Shown: positions 25,305 through 57,427 of the stretch, piece by piece
Position numbering within the stretch: the stretch's first letter is position 1
Layout of the letters: every line of letters starts with the position of its first letter
Assembly: GCA_028710415.1 (NCBI GenBank)
Contig: JAQTUE010000022.1
Span: 1 to 64,000, forward strand
Direction of reading: 5' to 3'
DNA: 64,000 bases
From: Paludibacter sp.
GTDB taxonomy: Bacteria > Bacteroidota > Bacteroidia > Bacteroidales > Paludibacteraceae
Translations under genes and position numbers: made by a program
Notes under the pieces: model-generated
Databases searched by the model: none
Told to the model about the DNA's origin: nothing
Seen by the model: only the letters and a program-made list of their open reading frames with translations

Positions 25305-25350
25305 AATCTACAAGGTTTAGTATGCTAAACCTTGTAGATTTTTTGTTTTA
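25305..25350 (+). terminator. Rho-independent terminator of GH76/SusCD operon
   Basis: A perfect 16-bp stem (AATCTACAAGGTTTAG / CTAAACCTTGTAGATT) with a TATG loop is followed by TTTTGTTTTA. It is placed 26 bp after the DUF3823 stop codon. Confidence 0.9.
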
Positions 25351-25585: not shown

Positions 25586-25614
25586 TTGTTACAATATTGA
25601 AAGCATTTGGTAAA
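25586..25614 (+). promoter_or_regulatory. Putative activator-binding motif, copy 1
   Basis: A 29-bp sequence: TTGTTACAATAT, four variable bases (TGAA), then AGCATTTGGTAAA. It matches 29516-29544 at 26 of 29 positions. In both places the distance from the TTTG inside it to the TAnnTTTG -7 box is exactly 35 bp. It would lie about 45-70 bp upstream of transcription start, a usual activator position. Its TTGTTACAA part is nearly palindromic. The bound regulator is not shown by the sequence; the HTCS at 45544 is the leading candidate. Confidence 0.65.
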
Positions 25615-25644
25615 CGGGTAAACTACCTGCCAATGCCAAAACAA

Positions 25645-25652
25645 TACATTTG
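25645..25652 (+). promoter_or_regulatory. Predicted -7 promoter box for GH2 gene
   Basis: TACATTTG matches the Bacteroidota -7 consensus TAnnTTTG. It is 151 bp upstream of the GH2 ATG. No TTTG lies at the usual -33 distance, as might be expected of an activator-dependent promoter. Confidence 0.5.
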
Positions 25653-25802
25653 TATCTTCAAAAAAGAGATTGTTTTAGTGTTTCAAAATAGTAGGTTTTA
25701 TTAATTTGAATTTTGTCGCTTTATGTTATACAGGTACCATCATTTTACAAATTCATTAAACCTACCTATCACACAAATAATATACTATTGAATTTAATCA
25801 TT

Positions 25803-28595
25803 ATGAATAATATTTTTATGAAATCAATCACAGCAAGGCATTTAGTAAAGTTCGTTTTATTAGTTGCATTTACCTTCTCTAATTTAAATTCAGGTTTATG
25901 GGCAGCAAATAAAATAGATTTGAAAGGAGTCTGGAGATTTAAATTAGACAGCACAGATGTTGGCATTTCGCAAAAATGGTTTACAGGGACATTGTCCGAC
26001 CAGATTAATTTACCCAGTACGACCGATGATGCCGGTATCGGAGTTCCGAATATCCTTTTACCTGAATTAAGACGGCCACAAGTATCCCATCTGACAAGGA
26101 AAAACAGTTATTTGGGCGTTGCCTGGTATAGTCGGGATATAAGTGTCCCTGCAAGTTGGAAAGATAAAACGATAACCCTGAAGCTGGAGCGTGTCATTTG
26201 GAAAACCAGTGTGTGGATTGATGGAAAACCTGTGGAAGGGAAACAGGAAAGTCTGACGACTCCCCATTATTTTGATTTGACAAGTTTTTTGTCACCCGGG
26301 AATCATAAGCTCACTATCCGTGTTGATAACCGGAAACAATATGATATTTCGGTTGATGAAATGGCTCATGCCTATACCAACGAAACACAAATCAAGTGGA
26401 ATGGTATTATAGGGGAAATTTGTTGTATTGCTGAAGACAAAGTAAATATTACCAATGTCGGGATTTATCCGGATATAACTAAAAAACTTATTGGGATTAA
26501 GGTAAATATTGCAAATGCTACTTCCAGAAATGCGAAAGGTATTCTAACTGTTTTTGCAACATCCAATAAAACCAACGAGAGATTACCGGTTCTATCATTC
26601 CCTTTTGATACTAAGAAATCAGGCACTTCTCTCAAAATAAGCTATCCCATGGGAAAAAATCCTTTGTTGTGGGACGAATTCAATCCGGATTTATACACGC
26701 TTACTTCCGAAATTAAAGGGAACGGTTTTGTGTCTTCTAAAACTGTAACTTTCGGTATGCGTTCATTAACTAATAAAAATGCACACTTGCAAGTTAATGG
26801 CCACCAGATTTTTCTGCGGGGCACGCTTGAATGTTGTATTTTTCCTTTGGAAGGCCATCCGCCCATGGATAAAAAAGGGTGGCAAAAAGTATTTGATACA
26901 GCCCGTGGATGGGGATTAAATCATTTGCGCTTTCATTCCTGGTGTCCACCGGAATATGCTTTTGAAGTTGCGGATGAAATGGGTTTTTACTTGCAAATTG
27001 AGCTCCCTGTTTGGTCACTTTCGGTAAATAAAGACCAGCCTACCAGTGAGTTCCTGTATGCTGAATCTGATCGCATCATAAAAGAGTATGGCAATCATCC
27101 TTCGTTTTGTTTCTGGAGTATCGGCAATGAACTGCAACCTGATTTTAATTTCCTGAATGCATTTGTCGACAGGCTTAAAACAAATGACCCACGCCACGTT
27201 TACACCAACACTTCATATACATTTGAAAAAGGACACGGAGCATGGCCCGAACGGAATGATGATTATTTTATTACCCAAACAACCAAAAAAGGATGGGTCA
27301 GGGGACAGGGTGTTTTTGATACTGAAATACCTGTTTTCAATAAGGATTATTCTGCTTCGGTTGACAGCATTCCTGTGCCGCTTATTTCCCATGAAATTGG
27401 CCAATATGCCGTTTACCCAAATCTCAATGAAATAGAAAAATATACAGGCGTACTTGATCCTTTGAATTTTAAAGCAGTAAAGAATGATTTAATCAGAAAG
27501 GGTTTGATTTCTAAAGCACAAGATTACCTGATGGCATCCGGTAAATTGGCTGCAATACTCTACAAAGAAGAGATTGAACGTGCCATGAAGACCGATGGGA
27601 TCAGCGGATTCCAATTACTGGATTTACATGATTTTCCGGGGCAAGGTACAGCTTTAGTGGGTTTGCTCGATGCGTTCTGGGATAGCAAGGGAATCATCAC
27701 AAATGAAACATTCCGTCAGTTTTGTTCACCGGTTGTACCATTAATTCGTTTTCAAAAAGCCACTTATACAAACAATGAAACTTTTAATGCCAGCGTGGAA
27801 ATTTTAAATAACGGAGCTTCCACTCTTAACGATAAGAAATTGATCTGGAAAATAACCGATAAATTAAATAACACAATTGCTGATGGAATGTTACAAATTC
27901 CAACCCTTACAGTTGGAAAAAGGGTGGTAACAGGCAATATTACAAAAGACTTAACCACCATCAGCACTGCCGGCAGCTATACCGTAAAAGTAGAAATTGA
28001 AGGAACAATTTATAAAAACGAATGGCAAATATGGGTATATCCGGTGAAAACAGAGATTGTTGCAGGAAATGTCATTATTACTCCTAATCGTGAAGAAGCA
28101 TTGAAAGCATTGTCCGAAGGTAAAAAAGTATTATTTAGTCCCAAAATAACTGATATCAATGGTTTGGAAGGCAAGTTTGTACAGGTTTTCTGGAGTCCGG
28201 TACATTTTCCAAATCAGCCCGGTACCATGGGATTATTGATGAATCCGAAACATCCTGCATTCAGCAATTTCCCTACGGAAATGCATACCAACTGGCAGTG
28301 GTGGGATCTATGTAAAAAATCAAAAACAATCTGTATTGACAGTATCCCCGGAGCGACACCCCTTGTTGAAAATGTTGACAATTTTATGAAAAATCGTCGG
28401 CTATGTTCCATATTTGAAGCAAAAGCAGGCAAAGGTCAACTTCTCTTTTCGTCTATGGATTTACTGACTGATACAGATAACAGGCCCGTGGCAAAGCAAC
28501 TTTTATTTAGTTTAGTGGAATATATGAAATCGGAGAAGTTTAAACCTGAAAATTCAATTACCGATTCAGAATTATTAAAACTTTTAATAAAATGA
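25803..28595 (+). CDS. GH2 glycoside hydrolase (beta-glycosidase)
   Basis: This 930-residue secreted family-2 retaining beta-glycosidase has a start at ATG 25803; further upstream the frame opens only with TTG. A signal peptide ends near LWAAN. A sugar-binding jelly roll (about 45-210, GVWRFKLDS, WYSRDISVP, VWIDGKPVEGK) comes first. An immunoglobulin-like domain (about 215-320) and the TIM barrel (about 330-640) follow. Acid/base Glu443 is in SIGNEL and nucleophile Glu531 in HEIGQY. An Ig-like and a GATase-like tail run to the end. The HEIGQY form sets it apart from the DUF4982-type GH2s at 50423 and 57428, so a different linkage or aglycone is likely. Exact specificity is unknown. It stands alone between a terminator and a repeat-rich gap. 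Its promoter motif is shared with the GH30 unit at 29943. Confidence 0.9.
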   Translation: MNNIFMKSITARHLVKFVLLVAFTFSNLNSGLWAANKIDLKGVWRFKLDSTDVGISQKWFTGTLSDQINLPSTTDDAGIGVPNILLPELRRPQVSHLTRKNSYLGVAWYSRDISVPASWKDKTITLKLERVIWKTSVWIDGKPVEGKQESLTTPHYFDLTSFLSPGNHKLTIRVDNRKQYDISVDEMAHAYTNETQIKWNGIIGEICCIAEDKVNITNVGIYPDITKKLIGIKVNIANATSRNAKGILTVFATSNKTNERLPVLSFPFDTKKSGTSLKISYPMGKNPLLWDEFNPDLYTLTSEIKGNGFVSSKTVTFGMRSLTNKNAHLQVNGHQIFLRGTLECCIFPLEGHPPMDKKGWQKVFDTARGWGLNHLRFHSWCPPEYAFEVADEMGFYLQIELPVWSLSVNKDQPTSEFLYAESDRIIKEYGNHPSFCFWSIGNELQPDFNFLNAFVDRLKTNDPRHVYTNTSYTFEKGHGAWPERNDDYFITQTTKKGWVRGQGVFDTEIPVFNKDYSASVDSIPVPLISHEIGQYAVYPNLNEIEKYTGVLDPLNFKAVKNDLIRKGLISKAQDYLMASGKLAAILYKEEIERAMKTDGISGFQLLDLHDFPGQGTALVGLLDAFWDSKGIITNETFRQFCSPVVPLIRFQKATYTNNETFNASVEILNNGASTLNDKKLIWKITDKLNNTIADGMLQIPTLTVGKRVVTGNITKDLTTISTAGSYTVKVEIEGTIYKNEWQIWVYPVKTEIVAGNVIITPNREEALKALSEGKKVLFSPKITDINGLEGKFVQVFWSPVHFPNQPGTMGLLMNPKHPAFSNFPTEMHTNWQWWDLCKKSKTICIDSIPGATPLVENVDNFMKNRRLCSIFEAKAGKGQLLFSSMDLLTDTDNRPVAKQLLFSLVEYMKSEKFKPENSITDSELLKLLIK

Positions 28596-28733
28596 TACCA
28601 GCATAATTCATTTATTTTCAAAAAACAATTCTGTTACCAGGAAACTACAAAATCAAAAAAAATAACAAGGAAATTAACTAACTCTAAAGTTAAATTATTA
28701 AACTTATACTGTTTAGTATTTGTTAGTTAATAA

Positions 28734-28905
28734 CTTAACTCTCAATTTCATGCTTTTTTTTGCACAATATTGCATAATTCGCTTCTAGCTATTTTATTCA
28801 GAAGAGTCTATGTCCGGTCTTAAAATCAAAATACGCAGTGTTTTTCTGATCCGTTTTTTATTCCGCCTGATTAGAGTTAGTCCGCGTTAAAATCTTAATT
28901 CTGGT
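28734..28905. repeat. Shared intergenic blocks B and A, inverted copy 2
   Basis: Read on the minus strand, block A (ends CGTATTTTGATTTTAA) and block B (AATTATGCAATAT ... GAAATTGAGAGTTAAG) follow each other with only about 47 bp between them. At 12.1-12.6 kb the same blocks are about 345 bp apart and hold the 208-bp palindrome. This copy therefore looks closer to the uninterrupted state. Confidence 0.65.
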
Positions 28906-29043
28906 TTATTCAGGTTAGGATAAATCATATGAACTCAAAACTAAAATATTATGTGATTCTATGCAATTTCTTTTGTAACTTTTGCGAGTGTGAGGAAAAA
29001 GAATTCATTGTTTCAGTATTCTGTTATTGGTTTGGTAAGATAA

Positions 29044-29215
29044 TGCTATGATGTCTTCATGATGTCGCACGTATTATTTTGAAGGTTCAGTAACTTTATG
29101 GGGTAGTTACGTATATATTACGCTCCTTAATAGTTACGTAATATATACGTAACTGATACGTAATTACTGCGTATCTACTACATAATATGTGAGACATCAT
29201 GAAGACATCATGGCA
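29044..29215. mobile_element. 172-bp MITE-like inverted-repeat element, copy 2
   Basis: Same length as the element at 4554-4725 but in opposite orientation. The end arms (29044-29070 and 29189-29215) pair at 25 of 27 positions and resemble the first copy's arms with a few transitions. The core carries the complement of AAGGAGCGTAATATA. Arms in each copy match each other better than they match the other copy, which suggests compensating change and a folded structure. No transposase frame. Confidence 0.75.
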
Positions 29216-29515
29216 TCATCGTCAAGAAAAAGTTCCTGTTCAGTGTTTCTGGTTTGAAAGGTTTGGGTTTAATACTATAAATTACAGAATGTGTATGTAT
29301 TAAGCCTTATGCTATTGTTTTTTTTTGAAAATGGATATTGGTTTTTGCAAGCAGGTATAATATTTAAAAATTTAATCTGAACTTTAAACTTCTCTTATAC
29401 TCCAGACTAACAATAAAATCTTTCGGGTCGAGAAGACTCAATAGTTTATAGCAAATCCAAAATAGTTTATCTCCTGAAAGTTAAATAAACGGTTCCAGAT
29501 TCAAATTATAATTGA

Positions 29516-29544
29516 TTGTTACAATATCAATAGCATTTGGTAAA
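29516..29544 (+). promoter_or_regulatory. Putative activator-binding motif, copy 2
   Basis: TTGTTACAATAT, variable CAAT, AGCATTTGGTAAA: 26 of 29 bases equal to the motif at 25586-25614. The spacing to the -7 box is the same 35 bp. It lies upstream of the GH30 transcription unit. Confidence 0.65.
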
Positions 29545-29574
29545 ATAAATCATACCCTAACAATCCATAATGTA

Positions 29575-29582
29575 TAGTTTTG
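29575..29582 (+). promoter_or_regulatory. Predicted -7 promoter box for GH30 unit
   Basis: TAGTTTTG fits TAnnTTTG at the same distance from the 29-bp motif as the box at 25645. It would give a long leader of about 350 nt. A second match, TATATTTG at 29807-29814, is closer to the ATG and is an alternative start point. Confidence 0.45.
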
Positions 29583-29942
29583 CATCCGTCATTCAACAAT
29601 TAAACCGAATGAATAAAACTTAGTTTTAGATATTGATACTAAAAAAGCTGCCCAATATAATCCAATGAAACATTTATTGTCCTAATTTAATTGTAGTTAG
29701 ACACCTTTTTCTAATTTTATTATCTCTTGATATAAACTATGCAAAATAGACGATTTTCTATACAATTATTATGAGATAATCCAAACAATTTTGGTCTATT
29801 GGTTTGTATATTTGTATTATATCAATTAATTGATAAACGAAATTTGAAGTTTTAAAATGAAAATTTAAACATTAGATTATTTTATTGATGATTGGATATT
29901 CGTTTCAAGAATTGAGCATTTAACTGAAAATAAAAATCACAA

Positions 29943-32111
29943 ATGAAAAAAATCTACCTTATATCTGTCTTAATTCTATTAACTTTTCAACTTCAGGCCA
30001 TTGATACAATTCTTTTTGATTTCGAATCAATTAATGTTCCCTCAACAGTTGCTTCATGGCTGAATTACACAAATGCAGGAGCATCTGCCAGTACGTGGTC
30101 GATAGCAAATCCTCAAAAAGATGTCTTTGACAGCACCTTAAATTGTTATAAAATCACCAAGAAAACTGGTGATCCTTATTGGACGGGATTGGAAGTGAAT
30201 TTAACGACCTCCATTCCCATTACTTCAACAAACCAATACCTTCATGTTTTTGTGTTCAAAAATACGACTTCGAGAATTGCACTTACATATACTCCTGATG
30301 GAGGAACCCAAAGTGCTGATGCCTGGATTTCGAACAGTAATGTTGGGTCCTGGATTGATTATGTCCTGACAATACCTGTAAATACTAACCTAAAAACATT
30401 TGCCATAAAGATTGCTGACGATCCGGGAGATTATTATTTCGATCAGATCATTCTTTCTGATAACCCGGCATCACTATCTAAAACAACCGTCAATATCGAT
30501 CCAGTCCTAAAAAATCAGGTGCTGGAAGGATGGGGAGGTTCACTTTGTTGGTGGGCTAATATAATGGGTGGATTTTCTGATTCAAAAATCAAGACTATTT
30601 GCGATTGGATTACAGATCCTGTGAATGGGCTAAATATGAATGTATTCAGGTTTAATATTGGAGGTGGCGACGACCCTACTCATAATCACATGCGTACTGA
30701 TGGTGGAGCTATGCCCGGCTATAAAGCTTCGCTCACAGCACCCTATGATTGGAATCAGGATTTGAATCAACGTAAAATTACACAGCAATTAATAGCCTCC
30801 CGGATAGCTAAAGCGGGAGTCAATGATATTCAACTGGTCGGATTTTCTAATTCACCTCCCTGGTGGATGACTCGCAGTGGTTGTTCTGCCGGGAGTGTAG
30901 AGGGAAATGTAACAAACCTAAAAGCAGATATGTTTGATGATTTTGCCGATTATCTGACTGAAGTAGCTAAACATTATCACGATAGTTTAGGCATCACTTT
31001 CAACTACCTGGAACCGTTTAATGAACCTGATGGTAATTGGTGGAAAGCGCTTGGTGGTCAGGAAGGTTGTTATTTTTCTACTGCTGATCAACTGGTTGAG
31101 ATCCGTGAACTGTACACCAAACTATCTGCAAAAGATATGCTTTCGTATTGTCAGATAACAGCAAATGATGCCAACAATATTGATAATGGCTACAGTGCAC
31201 TTGGATCGTACAAATCAGCAGGTGATATTGTCCCAAAAATGGCTTTAGTCTCCGTTCATACTTATGGAGGAAATAACCGGGCCGGTATAGCCGGTTGGGC
31301 AAAAAGCAATAATAAAAAACTCTGGCAATCCGAGTCAGGTCCAATTAGCATACCTGGCACCAATGAACATAACATAATGGTGATGGCTGATAGAATTATT
31401 ACCGATATTCGTGATTTGAAAAGTACGGTATGGTGCGACTGGCAGATTGGAGGCGATGGTGGTACAAATGCTACCTGGGCGTTAATTGTCAGTACCTATA
31501 GCAATAATTTAAATCCAATAACTAAAGGAATTGCATTCTATATCCGTTCACAGTTTAGCCGTTATCTAAAATCAGGATATACAATTATTGGCAACGATGC
31601 TGTGAATGTTTTAACCGCAATAAGTCCGGATGAAAAAGAGCTTGTTGTGGTAGTCAGCAACCAAAATACCTACACACAGAAATATTCATTCGACCTTTCA
31701 AAATTTTCAGGTTTCGGAAAAGTACAACAGGTTCGTACGCGTGTACAGGAATCATTGGGTGTAAAAAATTCATTGACACTTTTCAATATGACAGGTAACA
31801 CTATCAGTTATGATGCATTGTCAGAATCGGTAACAACGTTTATAATCCCTATCAATCAGTCACCGCAAGCAATCAAAGAAGTAAATGATAATGCCGGAGA
31901 TATGTATTATTCAACAGGGGTGATCCATACAAACTTTTCCAGGGAGGGAACTATCAGTATTTCTATCTACAATGCAGTAGGGCAGTTAATGAAAATATTT
32001 GATAAAGTTCCTTCCAGGGGGACACAACCATTAAATTTAAAAAGTGGTTTTTATATTGTAAATACTATCCTGGGAAATAAATCAGTTTCACGTAAAATAG
32101 AAGTGTATTAA
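29943..32111 (+). CDS. GH30 endo-beta-1,6-galactanase-like enzyme with T9SS tail
   Basis: This 722-residue secreted retaining hydrolase of family 30 (clan GH-A) has a signal peptide (1-19) and an N-terminal jelly-roll domain (about 20-178, TSTNQYLHVFVFKN ... YYFDQIILSDNP) that recurs in the next gene. The catalytic barrel starts near VLEGWGGSLCWWANIM (about 190-540). Acid/base Glu361 is in EPFNEPDG and nucleophile Glu464 in LWQSESGP. The barrel is followed by the family beta-structure. The NEPDGNWW and GGQEGC motifs resemble endo-beta-1,6-galactanases of GH30, so galactan or arabinogalactan side chains are the favoured substrate. That is family-level inference. Residues about 640-722 form a type A T9SS sorting domain (ISISIYNAVGQLMK ... 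GFYIVNTILGNKSVSRKIEV), predicting export and surface attachment by the type IX system. Confidence 0.9.
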   Translation: MKKIYLISVLILLTFQLQAIDTILFDFESINVPSTVASWLNYTNAGASASTWSIANPQKDVFDSTLNCYKITKKTGDPYWTGLEVNLTTSIPITSTNQYLHVFVFKNTTSRIALTYTPDGGTQSADAWISNSNVGSWIDYVLTIPVNTNLKTFAIKIADDPGDYYFDQIILSDNPASLSKTTVNIDPVLKNQVLEGWGGSLCWWANIMGGFSDSKIKTICDWITDPVNGLNMNVFRFNIGGGDDPTHNHMRTDGGAMPGYKASLTAPYDWNQDLNQRKITQQLIASRIAKAGVNDIQLVGFSNSPPWWMTRSGCSAGSVEGNVTNLKADMFDDFADYLTEVAKHYHDSLGITFNYLEPFNEPDGNWWKALGGQEGCYFSTADQLVEIRELYTKLSAKDMLSYCQITANDANNIDNGYSALGSYKSAGDIVPKMALVSVHTYGGNNRAGIAGWAKSNNKKLWQSESGPISIPGTNEHNIMVMADRIITDIRDLKSTVWCDWQIGGDGGTNATWALIVSTYSNNLNPITKGIAFYIRSQFSRYLKSGYTIIGNDAVNVLTAISPDEKELVVVVSNQNTYTQKYSFDLSKFSGFGKVQQVRTRVQESLGVKNSLTLFNMTGNTISYDALSESVTTFIIPINQSPQAIKEVNDNAGDMYYSTGVIHTNFSREGTISISIYNAVGQLMKIFDKVPSRGTQPLNLKSGFYIVNTILGNKSVSRKIEVY

Positions 32112-32293
32112 CCTGTTATAAGTTCAAAAACCCGGGTTGATACAAAAATGATAGTTTTTGATACAATACATAAATCATACGGAAAGGCAGAAGATTATTT
32201 TTGTATGACTTTATCATTCTAATTAATTTATTATTTATTACAATTAAATCTATTTAATACAATTCAGTACTAATCAATTAAATCAACAATTTC
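32112..32293. promoter_or_regulatory. Short gap with a possible promoter core
   Basis: Between GH30 and the T9SS partner gene. TATTTTTG at 32196-32203 fits TAnnTTTG. No terminator is apparent after GH30, so the next gene may be read both from this site and by read-through. Confidence 0.35.
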
Positions 32294-33733
32294 ATGAAAA
32301 AACTTGTTCTACTTTCAATGGCAATTTATTGCACCAGTTTGCTCTCTGCTCAAGAGACTAAACTTTTCACAGGGGATACAACTCCCAGTTTATTTTCCTA
32401 CATGGACATGGTTCCCTGGGGTATGGGAGATGCAGCTAATAATTATGTAAATTTCGGAACGACTGCTGCCCCAGCGTTTACAGAAGTTACTACTAATCCT
32501 GACAAAACAGGATTAAATGCTACCGACAAAGCATTGCATTTAACATCACTTAAAGGACATAGTTGGTGGCCGGATTTTTTAGATTTCACTTTAACTTCAC
32601 CAATTACCATTACATCGGCTAACAGGTATTTACACATGTATCATTTCCGTGAAAATTTGAATCAGGGATTCAGTGTAAATATAAACAATGAAAAAACATG
32701 GGAAGACCCGGACAAAGGAACGAAGCGTTTTGACATGCAACTTACGACTCCAGGCAAATGGGAAGATATTGTAATCGACCTGAAATGGTTTCTGGATAAT
32801 AATGTAGCTTTAACGTCAATTGCAGTATTAATGGACACTAACTGGGGCGGTGGAGCAGAACCAGTAACAAATTATTATTTTGATGAAATAGCATTAAATG
32901 ACAGTAATTTGCCTCGAGGTATCAATATTTTACCAGACACACAAATGTCACTGTTCTACGGAAATGCACCTTCGTATGCCAAATGGGTAAAAGCAATCGA
33001 TACTCAAAATGCAACAAATGTATCCACAATCGTTGCCAATCCTTTTACAACTCAAACAGCCACATTGAATTCTACTCAGGTATTGAAATTTGATAAAAGT
33101 GCAAGTGCTGCCTGGTGGCAAGGTCTGCGTACCGTATTGCCTGGTGTTTTCAAAGTAGGTGTGAATGCTGTACCAACCTTTTTGCATGTGATGGTTAATA
33201 TTCCGGTGATGGATCCAGCTCACGATCCGTATGTCATTCAATTGAACGCTAAAGATTTTAGTGGAAATCAGATTGATAGTGGCGATTTACTGAAATACTT
33301 TAACTCCGATGCAGGTAGTTGGGTAGATATGGTGTTTGATGTTACTTCATTGGGTTATCTTCAGGAATTTTCTGTCCGTTTCGATGTACGAAAGGATATT
33401 GCTGATGCTTATATTAATTCACCTGCAGGTACATTCTATGTGGATGCAGTATCCATTGATGCCAATCCGGATGCACGTACAGTTGTAGTATCGCCTACCG
33501 CAGTGGTAAATCCTAAGGTTTCAGATATGAAGATCTATTCTGCAAATCACAAGATTGTTGTGGAAGGAAATGCAGTATCAATTGAAGTTTATAACCTGAT
33601 AGGAAAATCTATAAATAAAATTTCAGCAACTACTTTCAAAACAGAATTACCGGTTAGTCAATCCGGAGTATATTTGGTGAAGGCTGTTTCTGTAAATGGA
33701 AATATTTCAAATACCAAAGTTTTAATAAAGTAA
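32294..33733 (+). CDS. Secreted two-domain glycan-binding-like protein with T9SS tail
   Basis: This 479-residue protein shows no catalytic motif. A signal peptide (1-19) is followed by two related beta-sandwich domains. The first (about 22-215) has ITSANRYLHMYHFRENLNQG and TNYYFDEIALNDSNLP. The second (about 220-390) has PTFLHVMVNIPVMDP, GSWVDMVFDVTSL and TFYVDAVSIDANPD. Both share the pattern of the N-terminal domain of the adjacent GH30: YLHxxxF strand, W-x-D/E strand, Y(Y/V)(F)D-x-I/V final strand. The C-terminus (about 405-479, MKIYSANHKIVVEG ... GVYLVKAVSVNG) is a T9SS type A sorting domain. The likely role is a non-catalytic surface partner that holds the substrate for GH30. No named family is recognised. 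Confidence 0.72.
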   Translation: MKKLVLLSMAIYCTSLLSAQETKLFTGDTTPSLFSYMDMVPWGMGDAANNYVNFGTTAAPAFTEVTTNPDKTGLNATDKALHLTSLKGHSWWPDFLDFTLTSPITITSANRYLHMYHFRENLNQGFSVNINNEKTWEDPDKGTKRFDMQLTTPGKWEDIVIDLKWFLDNNVALTSIAVLMDTNWGGGAEPVTNYYFDEIALNDSNLPRGINILPDTQMSLFYGNAPSYAKWVKAIDTQNATNVSTIVANPFTTQTATLNSTQVLKFDKSASAAWWQGLRTVLPGVFKVGVNAVPTFLHVMVNIPVMDPAHDPYVIQLNAKDFSGNQIDSGDLLKYFNSDAGSWVDMVFDVTSLGYLQEFSVRFDVRKDIADAYINSPAGTFYVDAVSIDANPDARTVVVSPTAVVNPKVSDMKIYSANHKIVVEGNAVSIEVYNLIGKSINKISATTFKTELPVSQSGVYLVKAVSVNGNISNTKVLIK

Positions 33734-35074: not shown

Positions 35075-38000
35075 ATGAAAACATTTATGAAGAAAATAAT
35101 ATTTCTGGCTTTCATGGTGCTGATTGTATTAGTACCATTGCATGCACAACAGACTGGTAAAGTAAAAGGTAAAGTCACTGATTTTAAAACCGGGGAAGAA
35201 TTGATAGGTGTAAATGTGAAGATTAAAGGAGGTACTACTGGAGCGATAACAGATATTAATGGTAATTATTCGATAGAAGTACAAAATGTCAATACTGACA
35301 TCATAGTATTTACTTATGTTGGATACAACGAATTACAGGAACCTTTAAAGAGCCGTTCAGTTGTAAATGTTCAACTAAGTGAATCTGAGAAACTGCTCAA
35401 TGAAGTAGTGGTGGTTGGTTATGGTTCACAAAAGAAACAATCCATAATCGGATCCATTTCATCTATTGACAATAAAACCCTTGTAACTACACCAGCCTCG
35501 AATATTTCACAATCATTGGCCGGTAAATTAGCAGGTGTTCAGATCGTTCAACCTTCGGGTGAAATTGGTAATGATGTCGCGAATATTTATATCCGTGGTA
35601 TGGCGACCTGGAATGATGCGAGTCCTCTATTTGTTGTTGATGGGATTATCAGGGCAGAATTTGCCAAGATAGATCCGAATGAAGTTGAATCCGTCAATAT
35701 TCTGAAAGATGCATCAGCCACTGCTGTATATGGTGTAAAAGGTGCCAATGGAGTTATTATCATTACTACAAAGAGAGGAGCATTGGGGAAACCAAAAATA
35801 TCAATAACAGCCCAGACTGCTATTACTCAACCGATGAGAATCCCTCAACCTCTGGGAGCCTATGATGCGACCAGCCTTCAGTATTTGCAGGACTGGGGAC
35901 AATACAAAACACGTACGCCTCAAATAAAAGGTGGGACTTTGGCCGGCGATTTATTATTATACCGCACAGGAGCTTCACCCTGGGATCACCCTGATGTAAA
36001 CTGGGTGAATGCCATCATGAAGCCTAACTCATCACAACAACAATACAATATAAATATATCCGGAGGAACAAAGACTGTTCGATATTTTGTATCCGGTGGA
36101 TTCCTTAATCAAAACGGTTTTTACAAAAATGATAACCTGACGGACTATTCACGCTTTAATTTTCGCAGCAACCTGGATGTTGATGTTTCAAAAGATTTAA
36201 CTGCATCGTTAAGTCTTGGTTCAAGGGTTGAAAGCCTTAATTCGCCTACGACCACTATCTGGAATAGTTGGGGTGCTTATCGTGGAGCCTTTGCCACAAC
36301 AGGTAGAAGTTATCCGATTTATAATCCTGATGGGTCTTTTGCAGGTGCTTCAACATATCCATCAAATTCAACAGTTGCACCAGATAATATTGTGAAATTT
36401 GTTTCACAATCAGGCATTTATAAAGATGTGAAGAGCACACTTGAATCAAGTTTAAGCATAAATTATAAACTAAATTTTATAACGAAAGGTCTTTCAACAA
36501 AAGCGCAGGTTTCATTTGATACCCAAGGTGAAAATGGGCGTTCGTGGTCACAATCGACTGCCGAATATGTCTACACTCAAAGTACTGATTCCTATCAAAA
36601 ATTCGGCCAGGACAAACCACTTTATTACAGTGGAGTTCAAAAGAATAACGACTGGCACAAGTTTTATATGGAAGCAGGGTTATATTATAACCGAACTTTT
36701 GGATTAAATTCTGTCAGCGGTTTAGTTTTAGGTACAAGAAATGAATTAGTGAATAATGCTGATGTCCCATTTAGGGACCAGGGATTAGTTGCCCGTTTTA
36801 CTTATGATTATGACAAGAGATTCTTTGGAGAATTTAATGTGGGTTATAATGGATCAGAAAATTTTCCCGGCACAAACCGATACGGCCTGTTTCCTGCCTA
36901 TTCTGTTGGTTGGTTGGTAAGTAACGAAGGTTTTATTGCCAACAGTTCACTGTCAACAATTATCACAAATTTAAAGCTTAGGGGATCAATAGGTTGGGTA
37001 GGTAATGATAAATTAAGTATCAATAATGTTGCTCAACGATTCATTTATTTGCAACAATATACAAATGGTGGAGGCTACACTTTTGGAACCGGAGATAATT
37101 ATTATCCCGGAATTCAACAAGGAACAATCGCAAATCCAAATGTTCAATGGGAAGTTTCCCGTAAAGAAAATATAGGTTTTGATTCTGAATTTTTTAAAGG
37201 TTTAATTGGGATAACTTTTGATTACTTTTATGAAAACAGAACCAATATATTAACAGAAATATCAGCTGTCATGCCTCAATATGTTGGAGCTTCATTTTAT
37301 CCCGCAAATATTGGTGCAACAGAAAATCAAGGGGTTGAAATTGAATTAAAACATAATTTGAGAATCAATAAAGACTTTAGTTATTATATAAAAGGTAACT
37401 TTACCTATAATGTAAATAAAGTGCTTAAAAAAGCAGACCCACTCGGTTTGTTGCCTTATCAAAAAGAAGAGGGATATCCTATTGGCACGCCGTTGGCATG
37501 GACCAATACTGGATATTTCAACAGCTATCAGGAAATCCAGAATAGTGCCATTCAATTGGGTGCCAACAATGGAATACCCGGGAATATTGAAATTGTACCC
37601 GGTGACTTGAAATTTTTGGATTTCAACCATGATGGAGTGATCAATCAGGCTGATGCATACCGTCAGGGATACGGTACGGTGCCTAATATCCAATATGGAG
37701 TTACCCTGGGTGGAAACTGGAAATCATTCGATTTCTCAATTCTATTTCAAGGATCGGCAGGTGCTTTATTTGCAAAACAATGGGAGATTATGTGGGCATT
37801 TTCCAATAACGATAATGTCTTTGGAAAACACAACAATTACTGGGCACCTGAAATTGCAAACAATGCTCAATTCACCCGTTTTTACGGGAAATCATGGGTA
37901 AACAATGAAAGGTATTATTCAACCTATGAATTGGGTTCGGGAGATTATCTCCGTATAAAAAATGTTGAATTAGGATATAATTTGCCAAATGCATTAATTC

Positions 38001-38158
38001 ATAAAGTCGGAATGTCGGGTATGAGGATCTATCTATCATCAATTAATACACTCATGTGGTCAAAAGAACCATATCTTGATCCGGATAACCGGGATACCCG
38101 CGGAGGGCAAATGCCAGCCACTCGTGCCTTTAATATTGGATTGAATCTTAATTTTTAA
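35075..38158 (+). CDS. SusC-family TonB-dependent importer, first of tandem pair
   Basis: This 1027-residue outer-membrane transporter has a signal peptide ending LHAQQ and a CarboxypepD-like domain (GKVTDFKTGEELIGVNVKI). A good TonB-box phrase LNEVVVVGYGSQKK follows, then the plug (SLAGKLAGVQIVQPSG, LFVVDGIIRAE, VNILKDASATAVYGVKGANG) and a beta-barrel ending LNLNF. The stop codon is directly followed by the SusD start (no spacer), which indicates tight translational coupling. It belongs to the HTCS-linked locus with GH30 and GH2 enzymes, so galactan-derived oligosaccharides are the likely cargo (inference). Confidence 0.95.
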   Translation: MKTFMKKIIFLAFMVLIVLVPLHAQQTGKVKGKVTDFKTGEELIGVNVKIKGGTTGAITDINGNYSIEVQNVNTDIIVFTYVGYNELQEPLKSRSVVNVQLSESEKLLNEVVVVGYGSQKKQSIIGSISSIDNKTLVTTPASNISQSLAGKLAGVQIVQPSGEIGNDVANIYIRGMATWNDASPLFVVDGIIRAEFAKIDPNEVESVNILKDASATAVYGVKGANGVIIITTKRGALGKPKISITAQTAITQPMRIPQPLGAYDATSLQYLQDWGQYKTRTPQIKGGTLAGDLLLYRTGASPWDHPDVNWVNAIMKPNSSQQQYNINISGGTKTVRYFVSGGFLNQNGFYKNDNLTDYSRFNFRSNLDVDVSKDLTASLSLGSRVESLNSPTTTIWNSWGAYRGAFATTGRSYPIYNPDGSFAGASTYPSNSTVAPDNIVKFVSQSGIYKDVKSTLESSLSINYKLNFITKGLSTKAQVSFDTQGENGRSWSQSTAEYVYTQSTDSYQKFGQDKPLYYSGVQKNNDWHKFYMEAGLYYNRTFGLNSVSGLVLGTRNELVNNADVPFRDQGLVARFTYDYDKRFFGEFNVGYNGSENFPGTNRYGLFPAYSVGWLVSNEGFIANSSLSTIITNLKLRGSIGWVGNDKLSINNVAQRFIYLQQYTNGGGYTFGTGDNYYPGIQQGTIANPNVQWEVSRKENIGFDSEFFKGLIGITFDYFYENRTNILTEISAVMPQYVGASFYPANIGATENQGVEIELKHNLRINKDFSYYIKGNFTYNVNKVLKKADPLGLLPYQKEEGYPIGTPLAWTNTGYFNSYQEIQNSAIQLGANNGIPGNIEIVPGDLKFLDFNHDGVINQADAYRQGYGTVPNIQYGVTLGGNWKSFDFSILFQGSAGALFAKQWEIMWAFSNNDNVFGKHNNYWAPEIANNAQFTRFYGKSWVNNERYYSTYELGSGDYLRIKNVELGYNLPNALIHKVGMSGMRIYLSSINTLMWSKEPYLDPDNRDTRGGQMPATRAFNIGLNLNF

Positions 38159-39889
38159 ATGAAACATGTTATGAAAAATATAAAATATATTTTCCTGTTT
38201 ATCGTGTTGGGATTTATAGGCTGTGATAAATTTTTAGATGTTGCCCCGGATGTAAACCTGAATGAAGATAAAGTCTTTACGAATTATGTCAATGCCCAGG
38301 CTTTCCAGGCAGATATCTACAGTGGTTTGACCCAACGATTCAATGCTGTTGGGAGTTATTTGCCAGTACCGATGTCGTCTGCATCTGATGAATCGGAATC
38401 AAATGCCGGATATTTCGGAACTAAAGTTTTTAATATGGGCAATTATGATGGGGCTGATGCCAATATCAGTTTTTATTATACAGCTATTCGAAAAGCCAAT
38501 CTTTTTTTGAAAAATGCCGGAAGAATACCTTATCCAAATGTATTGCAAAGGCAAAAGATGTCAGGTGAAGTCCATTTCTTGCGAGCCTTTTATTTCAATG
38601 AGATGTTGAAACGTTTTGGAGGTATGCCAATTCTTACTGAGAAGGATGGTATGTTTGTTCCGGGAGATAATCTGATGCGTCCACGCAATACTTACCGTGA
38701 ATGTTTTGCATTCATTATGGATGATTTAAAGTTGGCGATTGATTCCCTGCCAGTTACATTAAGCACGAATGAATATGGACGTGCTACCAAGGGAGCAGCC
38801 ATGGCACTGAAAGCCCGGGTGTTGTTGTATTCCGCCAGTCCCCTGTTCAGTCAGAAAACCGGTATTTGGGGAATGGGAGGTACTGTTGACGACTGGTATG
38901 AAAAAGATGGAAAAACATGGTGGCTAAAGGCTGCTGAAGCTTCACTTGCTGTCATTGATCTGAAAGATACAAACGGATCACCTGTTTATACACTTTATCA
39001 AACCAATGCTGCCAATAAAGCAGATGATTATCAAAATCTGTTTTTTAACCGCCGTGAACAAGGGAATAATGAAGTGATTTTTTATAAGCATGAAGGACCT
39101 GTTGGATTTAATGATGCTCAAATAAATGTTTGGGAACCAAATGGTGATTTTGGTGGGAGTGGTGCCGTTGAACCAACCAATAATTTTGTGAAACTATTTG
39201 AAATGTCGAATGGAAAATATATTGATGAGCCAGGTTCAGGGTATGATGAAACGAAACCATACTTAAACAGGGACCCGCGGTTTTATAAAATTATTATTTA
39301 TCAGGGAAGTTCATGGCAGGGAGCAACAGTCGATATGTCAACTTCAACAACTCAATTCCCGGCAGGAACTTTTCTGACAGGTTACTTTGTACGGAAATAT
39401 CTGCCGGAACAGATAAAAAAGAGTACTACCACAACTTCTTATCATAACTGGATATATTCACGTTTAGCAGAAATGTATTTAAATTATGCAGAGGCAATGA
39501 ATGAAGTAGAAGGACCCACCCAGCGAGTACGTGATGCTGTGAATGCTGTCAGAAGTCGCTCCGGGGTAGTTGATCTTCCTGTCAGTTTAACAAGTGACAA
39601 ATCATCCATGCGCAAACGAATCCAACGTGAACGGGCAATAGAATTGTGCTTTGAAGAACAACGCTGGTGGGATGCTCGTCGTTGGAGTACCGGGGAAGAC
39701 GGAGAATTAGCCGCTAAATGGTTTGGTGGGCCAATGTATCGGGTTTCAATAACTAAATCCGGTAACAATGTTACCTACAACGAGGAGACCTACTTTACGC
39801 GTATTTATCAAGCGCATAACAATCTCTATGAAATACCTACGGGAGAAATGTATAAAAATCCATTGTTTGTACAAAACCCCGGTTATTAA
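38159..39889 (+). CDS. SusD-family lipoprotein, first of tandem pair
   Basis: This 576-residue SusD-type surface lipoprotein (FIGC lipobox, Cys22) has TPR-like helices including VHFLRAFYFNEMLKRFGGMP and GAAMALKARVLLYSASPL. The C-terminal signature is RLAEMYLNYAEAMNEVEGPT and RIQRERAIELCFEEQRWWDARRW. The ATG touches the stop codon of its SusC partner; an internal ATG at 38171 is an alternative. Standard length for the family. It pairs with the preceding SusC to bind and pass oligosaccharides. Confidence 0.95.
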   Translation: MKHVMKNIKYIFLFIVLGFIGCDKFLDVAPDVNLNEDKVFTNYVNAQAFQADIYSGLTQRFNAVGSYLPVPMSSASDESESNAGYFGTKVFNMGNYDGADANISFYYTAIRKANLFLKNAGRIPYPNVLQRQKMSGEVHFLRAFYFNEMLKRFGGMPILTEKDGMFVPGDNLMRPRNTYRECFAFIMDDLKLAIDSLPVTLSTNEYGRATKGAAMALKARVLLYSASPLFSQKTGIWGMGGTVDDWYEKDGKTWWLKAAEASLAVIDLKDTNGSPVYTLYQTNAANKADDYQNLFFNRREQGNNEVIFYKHEGPVGFNDAQINVWEPNGDFGGSGAVEPTNNFVKLFEMSNGKYIDEPGSGYDETKPYLNRDPRFYKIIIYQGSSWQGATVDMSTSTTQFPAGTFLTGYFVRKYLPEQIKKSTTTTSYHNWIYSRLAEMYLNYAEAMNEVEGPTQRVRDAVNAVRSRSGVVDLPVSLTSDKSSMRKRIQRERAIELCFEEQRWWDARRWSTGEDGELAAKWFGGPMYRVSITKSGNNVTYNEETYFTRIYQAHNNLYEIPTGEMYKNPLFVQNPGY

Positions 39890-39921
39890 ACCTATTAAGT
39901 CACATCGAAAATCAATCTATT

Positions 39922-42900
39922 ATGATGACCATAAAGAAAAAACCGGAAATAATACTAATCATGTTATTTTTCCTGTTCTCAATTTTCACTTACGCACAAG
40001 ATAATAAACCAATAAAAGGTAGAATTACCGATACATCAGGTAACCCGGTTGAAAACGTTGTCGTATCTGTCTTGGATGAATTTACGCAGGTATCTTCAGA
40101 TTTCTCAGGGAATTTCTCAATTTCTTCAGCACCCGGGAAAGTAATATTGTTTAGCAAAATTGGATTTAAACCTTTGAAATATTCTATCAAAGACCGCTCT
40201 GAAATCAGTATTCAACTGGAGAAACAAAGCCAGGAAGAAGTATATCAGGTAGCTTACGGAACACGGAATAAGTCATCACTCACAGCTGCAATATCAACTA
40301 TTTCGGCAACAGAAATATCAAAAGCACCGGTTTCCACATTGGGAAATGCGATTCAGGGGCTCGCTTCAGGCCTCACTCTTTTGCGGACTGTCGGTGCTGA
40401 ACCGGGTTGGGACCAACCAACTATTTATATTCGCGGAGTTCAGTCTTTTGGAGGTGGAGTATCACCTTTGGTAATGGTGGACAATGTAGAACGCGATTTT
40501 TCCCAATTGAACCCGGATGAAATAGAATCGTTTACCGTTTTAAAAGATGCTGCAGCAACTGCCATGTATGGTATGCGTGGTGCAAATGGAGTCATTCTGG
40601 TTACTACTAAGAGGGGCTTTGTAGGGAAACCTGTAATTTCATTAACTGCACAATATGGAATGCAATCACCTACACGGTTGCCTAAATATGTCGGTTCACA
40701 GGATTATGTAAATTATAGGAATATTGCTTTAAGAAGTGATTACAGCAAATTGTCTGATGCAGATTTTAATTCTTTGTTTTTGAGTAATCCCAAAAACAAT
40801 CCGGCAAATTATAATGGAAGCAATCCTGGATTATATCCCAATACCGATTGGTATAAATCATTCTTGAACAGTACGGCTCCCCAGCAATCATATAATTTAT
40901 CTTTTCGTGGGGGAACTGATATTGCCCAATATTATGTCATGTTAGGAACTGTTGACCAGAAAGGATTATATAAATATACAAATGAGAATCCGGGTTACTC
41001 TACCCAGAATGATTTCTCACGTTATAATTTCAGGTCTGTAGTAGATGTTAACCTAAGTAAAAACTTTAAGATTGGTGTAAACCTGGCAGGCCGTGTTGAA
41101 AACAGGCATATCCCAAACTCAAGTGCGGGTTCAATCATGTCTGCTCTGTCAAAATTGCCCTCGACAATTCCTATTTTTAACGCCGATAGTTCCATCGCCG
41201 GATCGTCCATTTACAGATATAATCCATATGGAATGATTGCTAAAACAGGATTTCAAGATCAATACAGCTTTTATCTGCAGGGAACAACAACTTTTGACCT
41301 CAATCTTGATATGATTACAAAAGGTTTATCTGCCAATGGATTGTTTGGATATGATGCGGCTAAATTTTATAACCGATATAAAAATCAAAGTTATGCAGTT
41401 TATCAACAAAATGTGGATAATTCCTATACGCAGTTTGGACAAAGTTCAAGCATTGATTTGAATTACGGGGGTTATAACAGCAGCTTTAACCTGATGCTTA
41501 ATTATTTGTTTGGAATATCTTACGATCGAACGATTGGTTTAAATCATTTTGCAGGCGACATTAAATATATGCAATCAAGTTTGTCAACTGATGGCGATAA
41601 TCCTGATTACAGGAATCAGGGTGTTTTTGGCCGTACTGCCTATACTTACAATGACCGTTATACTGCAGAATTTGGATTTGCTTATAATGGTTCTGAAGAT
41701 TTTGCCAAAGGAAAGAGATTTGGGTTTTTTCCAACGATTTCAGGTGCATGGGTTATTTCAAGGGAAGATTTCCTAAAGAGTAATGAAACATTGAGCTTCC
41801 TGAAATTGAGAGGTTCGTATGGTAAAGTCGGGAATTCAAATATTGGAACAGGATCCCGTTACCCGTTTGAAGATAAATTTTACAGTGGCAACGGTTACTA
41901 TTTTGGAACAGCTTCAACGGATGGTTCCTATGAAGGTAGGATATCCAATCCCAACCTGACCTGGGAAGAATCGCTAAATGCAAATGTTGGTATTGAAATT
42001 GGCTTGTTTAAAAAACTGGACATTAATGTTGATGTTTTCAGCAACAATCGCACCCAGATTATAACCGATCTTTACAACATTCTTCCGGCTGTTATCGGAC
42101 AGAGTTTACCGTTTGTCAATGATGGTTCAGTACTTAGCCAGGGTTTTGAAATTTCAATGAAACACAACAATAAAATAGGAAATTTCACCTATACGGTTCA
42201 AGGGAATGTGTCTTTTGTGAAAAATAAAATTACTTCAAAGAAAGAAGTTGCAGGAATGAACCCGTGGGAGTACAGAACCGGTCAATCAGTCATGCAACAA
42301 TGGGGTTTGCAGGTGACCCCCGAAAAGTTCTTTAAAGACCAGGCTGATATCGATGGTTGGGCTAAATCAACTTTTAGTGCAGTTCAACCGGGAGATGTAA
42401 AATACGTCGATCAAAACAAGGATGGGATTATCGACAGTCAGGATTTTATCCCGTTAGGCAACCCATCCGTTCCTGAAATTAATTATGGACTTTCATTAGG
42501 TTGTGAATATAAAGGATTTGATTTCAATGTTTTATTTTCAGGTATTGCCAATCGTAGTTTGTTTGTAGGAAATAATGTTTTCCTGGGCTTGATGGATAAC
42601 AATAACCTTACTGATGAAGTTGCGAAAAATTCCTGGGGAGTTAGTTCAAACCCTACCTACCCACGACTGACAAATCAGATAAATCTTAATAATCTCCAGG
42701 CTTCCAGTCTTTGGATGAAAAATGTTGACTTTCTGAGAATTCAAACACTGGAAATAGGATATAGTTTGCCTAAAAAATTATTGAGTAAAGCAAATATTAA
42801 TGAAGTCAGGTTTTTTGTAAACGGATACAACCTTTTCTCGTTTGATGGCATGAGCAAATACAATCTGAGTGCTGAAATACCAAATGCAGGTGTATCACTT

Positions 42901-42948
42901 TATCCTGAAACCAGAGTAATCAATATTGGTACAAGCCTCAAATTCTAA
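39922..42948 (+). CDS. SusC-family importer, second of tandem pair, divergent TonB box
   Basis: This 1008-residue SusC-like transporter has a signal peptide ending FTYAQ and a CarboxypepD-like domain (KGRITDTSGNPVENVVVSVL). The plug contains NAIQGLASGLTLLR, PLVMVDNVERDF, FTVLKDAAATAMYGMRGANG. Where the paralogues have (E)VVVVGYGT, this one has EEVYQVAYGTRNKSS, a visibly altered TonB-box region. The barrel ends GTSLKF. SusD follows after 5 bp. It may import a different fragment of the same glycan. Whether the altered box changes TonB coupling is not decidable from sequence. Confidence 0.93.
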   Translation: MMTIKKKPEIILIMLFFLFSIFTYAQDNKPIKGRITDTSGNPVENVVVSVLDEFTQVSSDFSGNFSISSAPGKVILFSKIGFKPLKYSIKDRSEISIQLEKQSQEEVYQVAYGTRNKSSLTAAISTISATEISKAPVSTLGNAIQGLASGLTLLRTVGAEPGWDQPTIYIRGVQSFGGGVSPLVMVDNVERDFSQLNPDEIESFTVLKDAAATAMYGMRGANGVILVTTKRGFVGKPVISLTAQYGMQSPTRLPKYVGSQDYVNYRNIALRSDYSKLSDADFNSLFLSNPKNNPANYNGSNPGLYPNTDWYKSFLNSTAPQQSYNLSFRGGTDIAQYYVMLGTVDQKGLYKYTNENPGYSTQNDFSRYNFRSVVDVNLSKNFKIGVNLAGRVENRHIPNSSAGSIMSALSKLPSTIPIFNADSSIAGSSIYRYNPYGMIAKTGFQDQYSFYLQGTTTFDLNLDMITKGLSANGLFGYDAAKFYNRYKNQSYAVYQQNVDNSYTQFGQSSSIDLNYGGYNSSFNLMLNYLFGISYDRTIGLNHFAGDIKYMQSSLSTDGDNPDYRNQGVFGRTAYTYNDRYTAEFGFAYNGSEDFAKGKRFGFFPTISGAWVISREDFLKSNETLSFLKLRGSYGKVGNSNIGTGSRYPFEDKFYSGNGYYFGTASTDGSYEGRISNPNLTWEESLNANVGIEIGLFKKLDINVDVFSNNRTQIITDLYNILPAVIGQSLPFVNDGSVLSQGFEISMKHNNKIGNFTYTVQGNVSFVKNKITSKKEVAGMNPWEYRTGQSVMQQWGLQVTPEKFFKDQADIDGWAKSTFSAVQPGDVKYVDQNKDGIIDSQDFIPLGNPSVPEINYGLSLGCEYKGFDFNVLFSGIANRSLFVGNNVFLGLMDNNNLTDEVAKNSWGVSSNPTYPRLTNQINLNNLQASSLWMKNVDFLRIQTLEIGYSLPKKLLSKANINEVRFFVNGYNLFSFDGMSKYNLSAEIPNAGVSLYPETRVINIGTSLKF

Positions 42949-42953
42949 ATAAG

Positions 42954-44684
42954 ATGAAAAAAATGAAAAAGCTTATTCTTATATTCATGACTGTCGGAAC
43001 CGTTTTTATGACACAATCGTGTTCTGATTATCTTAGCAAAGATAGCAGTGTTAATACAACATTGAGCTATCAGCAAATATTTTCCGATGTCCATTATGCA
43101 CCCGGATTTTTAAACAATATCTATAATAATCTACCGGATGGATTTACCCGTTTTGGTGGGGCTATGCTTGCTGCCGGATGTGACGAAGCTGTATGTTCGG
43201 ATGCAGGATCACCAATTCAACTGTTTAATAATAATGCGATTAATCCTTCAACCAATCCCGATGATCAATGGGGAAATATGTATAGTGGTATCCGTAAATG
43301 CAATATTTTTTTAAAAGAGCTATCCCCGGATGGAATTATAACTAAATCAAACAGCATACCATTAGTTGAAACAGTTAGTAATAAAGATGTGAACACCCGT
43401 AATTATTATAAAGGACAGGCATTGTTTTTACGGGCATATTTTCATTTTGAATTATTAAAACGTTATGGCAACATATTCTATGTAAGCAAAGTGCTTAATC
43501 CGTTTAATGAAGAAGAATTGTTTTCGGGCACACAATTACCATATAATCAGACGGTAGACTCCATAGCAAACGACTGTGATTCGGCTGCTAAATATATGCC
43601 TGCTGCTTATCCTGATATTAGCTACAATGGCCGTCCAATCAGTATGACAGCTTTGGCATTAAAATCCAGGTTATTTCTGTATGCTGCAAGTCCGCTTAAT
43701 AATCCATCAAATGATAAGACAAAATGGAAAAGGGCTGCCGATGCTTCAAAAGTGATTATGGATTCCCAGAAATATAAATTGAATTCATTGAGTTCGATTT
43801 TTACATCCCTGTATAATGGCGAGATTATATTTGCAAATAAAGCTATAAACAGGAATGATATCGAAAGTTATAATTATCCGGTCAGTTACCAGGGGTCAGG
43901 ATTGATGAATCCAACAGAAGATTTGGTAGAGGCATATGGCATGGGTGCCACAACTTTCAAAAACAGGTATTTGAATTATAATTCAAACGACCCTTATGGA
44001 TTAAACAATACCAAAAAAAGAGAAGACAGATTGCGTTACACTGTTTACTACAATACAAGCAGGTTGATTAATCTTAGCAATACTAAAGATACAATTGTAG
44101 CTACTTATGTAGGAGGGAAAGATGGTTTGTTTTCAACACCTACAGCTACTAAAACTGGTTATTACATGAGTAAATTTATAAACTCATCAATCGATTTGAG
44201 TAAGGGAATTACCAGTTACAGGGGTTGGGTTATCATGCGGTATGCTGAAATTTTACTTAACTATGCAGAAGCATTGAATGAATATGATAATTCCGGTACT
44301 AACTTTACGGCAATAGTTAATGCTCTTAATCAAATTCGTAACAGGGCAAATTTAAAGCCTTTAGATACAGCTGATAAAACTGTTCTGCAAGATCAGGCGG
44401 AAATGCGCAAATATATCAAACTGGAACGAAGGCTTGAACTGGCATTTGAGGAACATCGCTTCTGGGATCTTCGCCGTTGGAAAGATGCTGAAACAGTATT
44501 AAATCAACCCGTACAAGGAATGCGTATAACCAAAGATACTTCAGGAAACTATGTGTATACTGTTTTTAGTGCTGATACCAGGGTGTTCGATACTAAAATG
44601 TACTGGTACCCAATTCCACGCACAGAGATATTAAAATACAGAAGTGCAGGTAAAACGATTGTTCAAAATCCGGGCTGGGAATAA
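42954..44684 (+). CDS. SusD-family lipoprotein, second of tandem pair
   Basis: This 576-residue SusD-type lipoprotein (TQSC lipobox, Cys23) has family helices YKGQALFLRAYFHFELLKRY and MTALALKSRLFLYAASPLNN. The C-terminal signature includes RYAEILLNYAEALNEYDNSG, NQIRNRANLKPLD and LERRLELAFEEHRFWDLRRW. It lies 5 bp after its SusC partner and 68 bp before a small lipoprotein gene. Confidence 0.95.
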   Translation: MKKMKKLILIFMTVGTVFMTQSCSDYLSKDSSVNTTLSYQQIFSDVHYAPGFLNNIYNNLPDGFTRFGGAMLAAGCDEAVCSDAGSPIQLFNNNAINPSTNPDDQWGNMYSGIRKCNIFLKELSPDGIITKSNSIPLVETVSNKDVNTRNYYKGQALFLRAYFHFELLKRYGNIFYVSKVLNPFNEEELFSGTQLPYNQTVDSIANDCDSAAKYMPAAYPDISYNGRPISMTALALKSRLFLYAASPLNNPSNDKTKWKRAADASKVIMDSQKYKLNSLSSIFTSLYNGEIIFANKAINRNDIESYNYPVSYQGSGLMNPTEDLVEAYGMGATTFKNRYLNYNSNDPYGLNNTKKREDRLRYTVYYNTSRLINLSNTKDTIVATYVGGKDGLFSTPTATKTGYYMSKFINSSIDLSKGITSYRGWVIMRYAEILLNYAEALNEYDNSGTNFTAIVNALNQIRNRANLKPLDTADKTVLQDQAEMRKYIKLERRLELAFEEHRFWDLRRWKDAETVLNQPVQGMRITKDTSGNYVYTVFSADTRVFDTKMYWYPIPRTEILKYRSAGKTIVQNPGWE

Positions 44685-52843: not shown

Positions 52844-52859
52844 TTACGAACTATAAACC

Positions 52860-55709: not shown

Positions 55710-55749
55710 GTTATTTGAATTATAAATGAAAAAATAATAATTGGTCATT

Positions 55750-57414: not shown

Positions 57415-57427
57415 AAATATAATTAGT

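Follow-up and report, generated by a model that had tools for sequence, protein, structure and literature searches.

What controls the glycosidase and transporter genes gathered on a contig of Paludibacter sp. (JAQTUE010000022.1, positions 1 to 64,000; this whole 64,000-nucleotide stretch is called the window below), and does a solitary glycoside hydrolase family 2 (GH2) gene at 25803 belong with them? An earlier note on this DNA had described a 29-bp motif before that gene and before a GH30 gene at 29943, had read it as an activator site, and had named as candidate activator the hybrid two-component system protein (HTCS) encoded at 45544. We find that the motif belongs to a larger element, a direct repeat whose period is 21 bp and which is held at a constant distance from a -7 promoter box, and that sites of this kind co-occur with orthologs of the HTCS in related genomes. 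On the strength of these patterns we put the probability at roughly 0.88 that the element is the operator of HTCS 45544, which would activate a galactan-digesting regulon.

The two copies of the motif lie at 25586-25614 and 29516-29544 and are identical at 26 of 29 positions, and exactly 35 bases separate the TTTG within each (25606-25609 and 29536-29539) from a -7 box (at 25645 and 29575), all as first described. A scan of the 6.28-Mb genome, a check that the earlier note had proposed with about four mismatches, returns two copies within three mismatches, both at these places, against no match for the reversed pattern; a motif match appears in 0 of 100 window shuffles; and the many genome-wide copies that the note had said would overturn its reading did not turn up at this threshold. 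Copy number thus rules out a dispersed repeat. While both copies are real, the description was not the whole: an 18-bp half-site, about TTGnTACAATAnnnAAAG, is directly repeated with a period of 21 bp, and two further sites, a strong one at 32137 and a weak one at 49777, had been missed. Similarly, the sequence between motif and box, presented as non-conserved filler, is mostly variable, but its A-rich columns 35-37 are part of half-site 2.

All four operators read on the plus strand. Operator 1 (25586-25624; half-sites 25586-25603 and 25607-25624), before GH2 25803, carries TTGTTACAA and, one 21-bp period on, TTGGTAAAC; operator 2 (29516-29554; half-sites 29516-29533 and 29537-29554), before GH30 29943, carries TTGTTACAAT and TTGGTAAAAT with the same period; operator 3 (32137-32175), before gene 32294, carries TTGATACAA twice at 21 bp; and operator 4 (49777-49815), in which half-site 2 is degraded, lies 94 bp upstream of the HTCS start, pointing away from that gene and toward a GH2 gene at 50423. 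The period of 21 bp was singled out on the basis of the published HTCS layout together with the results that follow, not from self-comparison of the motifs alone. Lag 21 stands out in a profile of 23 sites, a signal that is partly built in because the sites were sought with a 21-bp repeat; as they were picked by window-derived consensus, matrix score and position, the profile is no independent proof of the repeat. Columns outside the search consensus (8-17 against 29-38) agree best at lag 21 (0.50, with at most 0.42 at the other lags from 12 to 30).

The repeat is set at a constant distance from the promoter. Scanning for TTGNTAMA twice at 21 bp, with TAnnTTTG 37-39 bp after the start of half-site 2, brings up a third exact case, the site at 32137. 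From the start of half-site 2 to the box the distance is 38 bp in operators 1 to 3, whose boxes TACATTTG (25645-25652), TAGTTTTG (29575-29582) and TATTTTTG (32196-32203) match TAnnTTTG exactly, and it is likewise 38 bp in operator 4, whose -7-like box GAAATTTG (49836-49843) has one mismatch. When the box is ignored and only the repeat is sought (at most one mismatch; 16 contigs, window included), 22 repeats are found; 12 TAnnTTTG boxes lie 12-79 bp downstream of them, and 12 of 12 stand at 38. With the spacing fixed at 38, the window's own genome holds three exact matches, all in one locus, none at one mismatch and five at two. Relaxed scans of this genome barely exceed their reversed controls—15 matches (2 exact) against 11 for the half-site pair with one mismatch, 19 (3 exact) against 18 for the full pattern at up to three mismatches—and for that reason only exact matches were used. 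If transcription starts 6-8 bp after the box, which after box 25645 would be at about 25658-25660, the repeat spans about -73 to -35. A TTTG at -33 is not conserved in the 23-site profile (columns 38-44, no base above 0.48).

We scored these sites with a matrix built from 11 sites of relatives and none from the window, the training sites having themselves first been found via a window-derived consensus. It gives 49.7 bits at 29516, 46.9 at 25586, 43.8 at 32137 and 19.7 at 49777, and no other window position exceeds 8; the best score in ten Markov simulations (plus strand) is 5.7 bits.

The proposed regulator, encoded on the minus strand at 45544-49683, combines a Reg_prop/Y_Y_Y sensor with HisKA, HATPase_c and receiver domains and an AraC-type DNA-binding domain. 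Among the matches listed, a scope that applies to every count of orthologs within the genus given here, its orthologs (56-75% identity) number ten genes in nine other genus genomes, two of them in genome G004, and the next HTCS homologs with long matches stand at about 35% identity; the helix-turn-helix regions of 11 orthologs are, judged by eye, near-identical. Across 48 genus genomes the pattern at up to one mismatch yields 22 matches (9 exact), with 1 in the reversed control. The nine exact matches fall in six of the ten genomes that bear an HTCS ortholog (five of nine when the window's is set aside) and in none of the 38 that do not. Thirteen matches have one mismatch; seven of these lie in six genomes without an ortholog, and those on G001 contig C36, G045 C54 and G041 C269 adjoin other HTCS genes. 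Since many of the genomes are incomplete, an ortholog that seems absent may sit on a contig that is missing. Divergent sites pointing away from the HTCS accompany 9 of the 14 ortholog genes seen, window included (8 of the 13 others); in most of these HTCS-side sites it is half-site 2 that is degraded, in G004 half-site 1.

The receiver loop of HTCS 45544 reads DHIP, with SHIP or NHIP in some orthologs; most HTCSs have S/CHIP (PMC11253607; this and the papers below are cited from parts of their text). At another HTCS locus (L161, about 6209-6313), -7 boxes on both strands each stand about 36-40 bp from one and the same 21-bp direct repeat, which is perhaps a bidirectional operator.

We also ran the matrix over 80 loci of named genomes that carry a GH30 relative. 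Nineteen matches score 15 bits or more (15.0, rounded, for the lowest). Of the 20 loci with at least 54% GH30 identity, 10 have such matches; the other 60 loci have none, their best being 14.5. Eight of the ten positive loci come from genomes that supplied training sites, leaving L084 (Prolixibacteraceae) and L123 (Marinilabiliales) as the independent positives among 11 loci at or above 54% from previously unused genomes. Fourteen genomes were searched for the HTCS, two of which (G050 and G051) are, from their identical HTCS rows, probably the same as G042 and G001 of the genus set; an ortholog (61-69%) was found in three, those of L083, L084 and L123. The genomes of L084 and L123 have sites of at least 15 bits, and that of L083, in short contigs, has one of 13.5 bits. 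In the L084 and L123 genomes the locus is colinear; one site lies between GH30 and the homolog of gene 32294, its box with one mismatch in either genome, and a second adjoins the HTCS. The co-occurrence of sites and ortholog in the genus and in two genomes outside it speaks for the HTCS as the probable regulator, as originally suggested. A further GH30 locus, L085, titled as a Porphyromonas cangingivalis metagenome-assembled genome, is a contig of 21,538 bases whose GH30 is also that of G045 contig C62, from the window's genus; its label looks wrong.

The HTCS would activate four promoters as one regulon: those of GH2 25803, of GH30 29943, of the SusC/D operon beginning at 32294 and, to a lesser degree, of the enzyme operon beginning at 50423, all on the plus strand. 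The GH2 (25803-28595) has as its nearest NCBIfam model the exo-beta-1,4-galactosidase BT4151 (893 bits, below the 1500 cut-off). The GH30 (29943-32111) bears a type IX sorting tail, and its nearest solved structure in the PDB is a secreted endo-beta-1,6-galactanase (24td). From these two affinities we reasonably infer that the substrate of the locus is galactan-type. Gene 32294 (32294-33733), the first after operator 3, may encode a type IX-sorted surface protein (its sorting-domain matches are below cut-off), and a site lies upstream of all nine of its orthologs, seven in the genus (window included; 0-2 mismatches) and two outside. Two SusC/SusD pairs follow (35075-44684; TonB-dependent receptors at 35075 and 39922, SusD at 38159 and 42954), and downstream of operator 4 stand GH2, alpha-L-rhamnosidase, GH30 and GH2 genes (50423-59857); in genomes G049 and G058, homologs of GH30 55750 and GH2 57392 come after the divergent site. 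The leader of GH30 29943 after operator 2 (29583-29942), about 360 bp long where that of G036 has about 75 bp at most, contains another -7-like box, at 29807. One more large alpha-L-rhamnosidase gene, at 4872-8405 on the minus strand, lies outside the proposed regulon.

Examination of half-site 2 reveals two operator versions. With nine HTCS-side sites set apart before the count, column 27 is C in all nine sites ahead of the first SusC/D-operon gene (TTGnTACAATA) and column 24 is G in none of them; at the other promoters (TTGGTAAAATA) column 24 is G in 14 of 14 sites and column 27 is C in 0 of 14. Orthologous promoters in this count are not independent samples, which makes its P value descriptive. 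Operators 1 and 2 are of the latter, TTGG version, operator 3 of the former, TACAATA version. The 14 other promoters mostly lead GH2, GH30 or accessory genes; the one in G033 is at a contig edge, and those at G022 23570 and in G004C6 precede genes without assigned identity. We suggest, tentatively and with more doubt than confidence, that one HTCS reads both versions as an affinity code, such that transporter and enzyme genes would respond at different levels of phosphorylated HTCS, within a strict 38-bp geometry in which the activator replaces the -33 element; if true, transporter and enzyme genes would be induced in a staggered fashion. Sites of the TTGG version also lie near the genes of a sister HTCS branch (G004:C6 and G033:C143, 60-61%), which have no orthologous SusC/D on the fetched stretches; regulator and operator perhaps moved together there.

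The presence of a direct repeat always 38 bp from a -7 box supports the reading of the motif as an activator site, and suggests how it might act. The periplasmic sensor would bind an oligosaccharide, probably galactan-derived, and the HTCS would thereby become active; two receiver/AraC-domain protomers could then occupy the operator, one per half-site, and the 21-bp period would therefore place both on the same helix face. Starting 38 bp upstream of TAnnTTTG, the promoter-proximal half-site would reach about -35, beside the position of the -33 element, and because no -33 TTTG is conserved, the bound activator probably substitutes for the -33 contact with RNA polymerase.

Co-occurrence cannot by itself tell the HTCS from the rest of a syntenic locus, and the sites might belong to another transcription factor, encoded elsewhere and controlling the galactan genes, with the HTCS merely travelling with them. 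We consider this improbable: the HTCS is the only DNA-binding regulator recognised among the Pfam-scanned window proteins (a set without open reading frames of under 120 aa and three overlapping short ones), a direct repeat at 21 bp is the arrangement published for HTCS sites, and in G004C6 and G033 an HTCS ortholog without orthologous SusC/D (on stretches of 40 and 7.8 kb) has sites of 32.6 and 28.2 bits nearby; in G050, with a GH30 of 61% identity, neither an HTCS ortholog nor a site was found. That operators 1 and 2 agree at 26 of 29 positions while their flanks differ might also point to an extended core-promoter feature, or to the remnant of an insertion or repeat left by a recent promoter duplication; with the 6.28-Mb genome's three exact copies confined to a single locus, and with the motif kept at orthologous promoters of other genomes as the spacer turns over, this explanation is disfavoured and very hard to sustain.

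The place of GH2 25803 calls for separate weighing, as it follows a GH76/SusCD operon and might be a gene of that operon, or simply independent of the HTCS, with operator 1 non-functional there. Its orthologs in G035, G004 and G018 have no site of their own; in all, a site lies within 700 bp upstream in three of the six testable orthologs, window included (the G045 gene, with too little upstream sequence, was dropped from this count). Nevertheless, operator 1 and its 38-bp spacing are kept before the GH2 in G036 and G022, the gene's orthologs (at least 59% identity) lie on the same strand upstream of the GH30, one or two genes apart, in six of six relatives, and those relatives' GH2 contigs, as far as they extend, hold no best match to a GH76-operon protein. 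Between the operon and the GH2 stands a terminator-like hairpin (25305-25340, plus strand; a 16-pair stem and a T run); since the region has 5 terminator-like sites against 4.8 in shuffles, the weight of this one rests on its stem, the longest of them. Together with the galactosidase-like affinity of the protein, this favours the assignment made in the earlier note, to the GH30/SusCD regulon and not to the GH76 operon, and leaves the alternative unlikely. Downstream of the GH2, 28596-29515 is a stretch of about 0.9 kb without an open reading frame of 120 aa, where all six relatives with a GH2 ortholog have one or two extra genes; tblastn at 1e-3 matched no remnant of those genes in 28596-29942.

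Several results weigh against an operator of HTCS 45544 and its regulon. In self-comparison the two original motifs also give 9 of 12 matches at shifts other than 21, namely 25 (motif 1) and 33 (motif 2). As for a 38-bp rule among HTCS paralogs at large, 40 paralog loci show an enrichment of period 21 upstream of boxes but no unique spacing: this period yields 14 boxes at 34-40 bp (1-9 for other periods) and also 12 at 25-31 bp (others 0-8) and 14 at 43-49 bp (others 0-11). Four of the ten genus genomes with an HTCS ortholog have no exact match; no site scoring more than 8 bits lies in the 40 kb of the G032 locus that bears the ortholog (61%); and the 13.5-bit site in the L083 genome (G048) falls short of the control maximum of 14.5 among the 60 control loci. 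A site lies directly upstream, within 700 bp, of two of ten GH30 genes tested; it stands before the preceding gene in G022, G035, G018 and G004 and two genes upstream in G041 C80 and G045, and none was found at the GH30 loci of G041 C239 and G032. Further points against it are the GH2 orthologs without a site of their own and operator 4, whose box has one mismatch and which itself stands about 650 bp ahead of GH2 50423.

In Bacteroides thetaiotaomicron, HTCSs have been reported as the commonest class of regulator at polysaccharide loci (PMC6874557), and their predicted motifs there are direct repeats of two conserved sites, at a mean tandem distance of 21 bp, that precede susC/susD and also enzyme genes in the vicinity of an HTCS gene (PMC3878776); in the papers cited here HTCS operators are otherwise predictions, with two target promoters gel-shifted (PMC11253607). 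The locus described here resembles those regulons in its repeat of about 21 bp, in having the HTCS in the same locus, in sites that lie before SusC/D and enzyme genes, and in their retention in relatives. It differs in its genus, Paludibacter, and in the fixed distance of 38 bp that separates its sites from the -7 box and the two versions of half-site 2, neither of which is mentioned in the section of PMC3878776 considered; in parts of PMC3878776, PMC11253607, PMC7366714, PMC12125979, PMC11501099 and PMC6874557, neither a fixed operator-to-box distance nor two half-site versions is stated, though both may exist in print. A SusR-type operator, with tandem sites 67 or 77 bp apart (PMC3878776), is ruled out by the period of 21 bp. 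The usual primary-sigma promoter of Bacteroidota has TAnnTTTG at -7 and TTTG at -33 (PMC7366714); here the -7 box is exact at operators 1 to 3 and has one mismatch at operator 4, and the -33 TTTG is not conserved. The control design is already known from gut Bacteroides; this locus adds to it an unvarying promoter geometry and sites in different versions. The locus thereby offers a small, conserved set of operators with a fixed promoter geometry that is directly testable, and a stray GH2 gene is assigned to a pathway. At araBAD of Escherichia coli, the AraC sites I1-I2 form a direct repeat of 17-bp half-sites with a 21-bp period, the proximal one beside the -35 region. Repeat period and placement are similar in the present locus, where the AraC domain instead forms part of a membrane sensor kinase by fusion and the promoter belongs to the Bacteroidota TAnnTTTG type.

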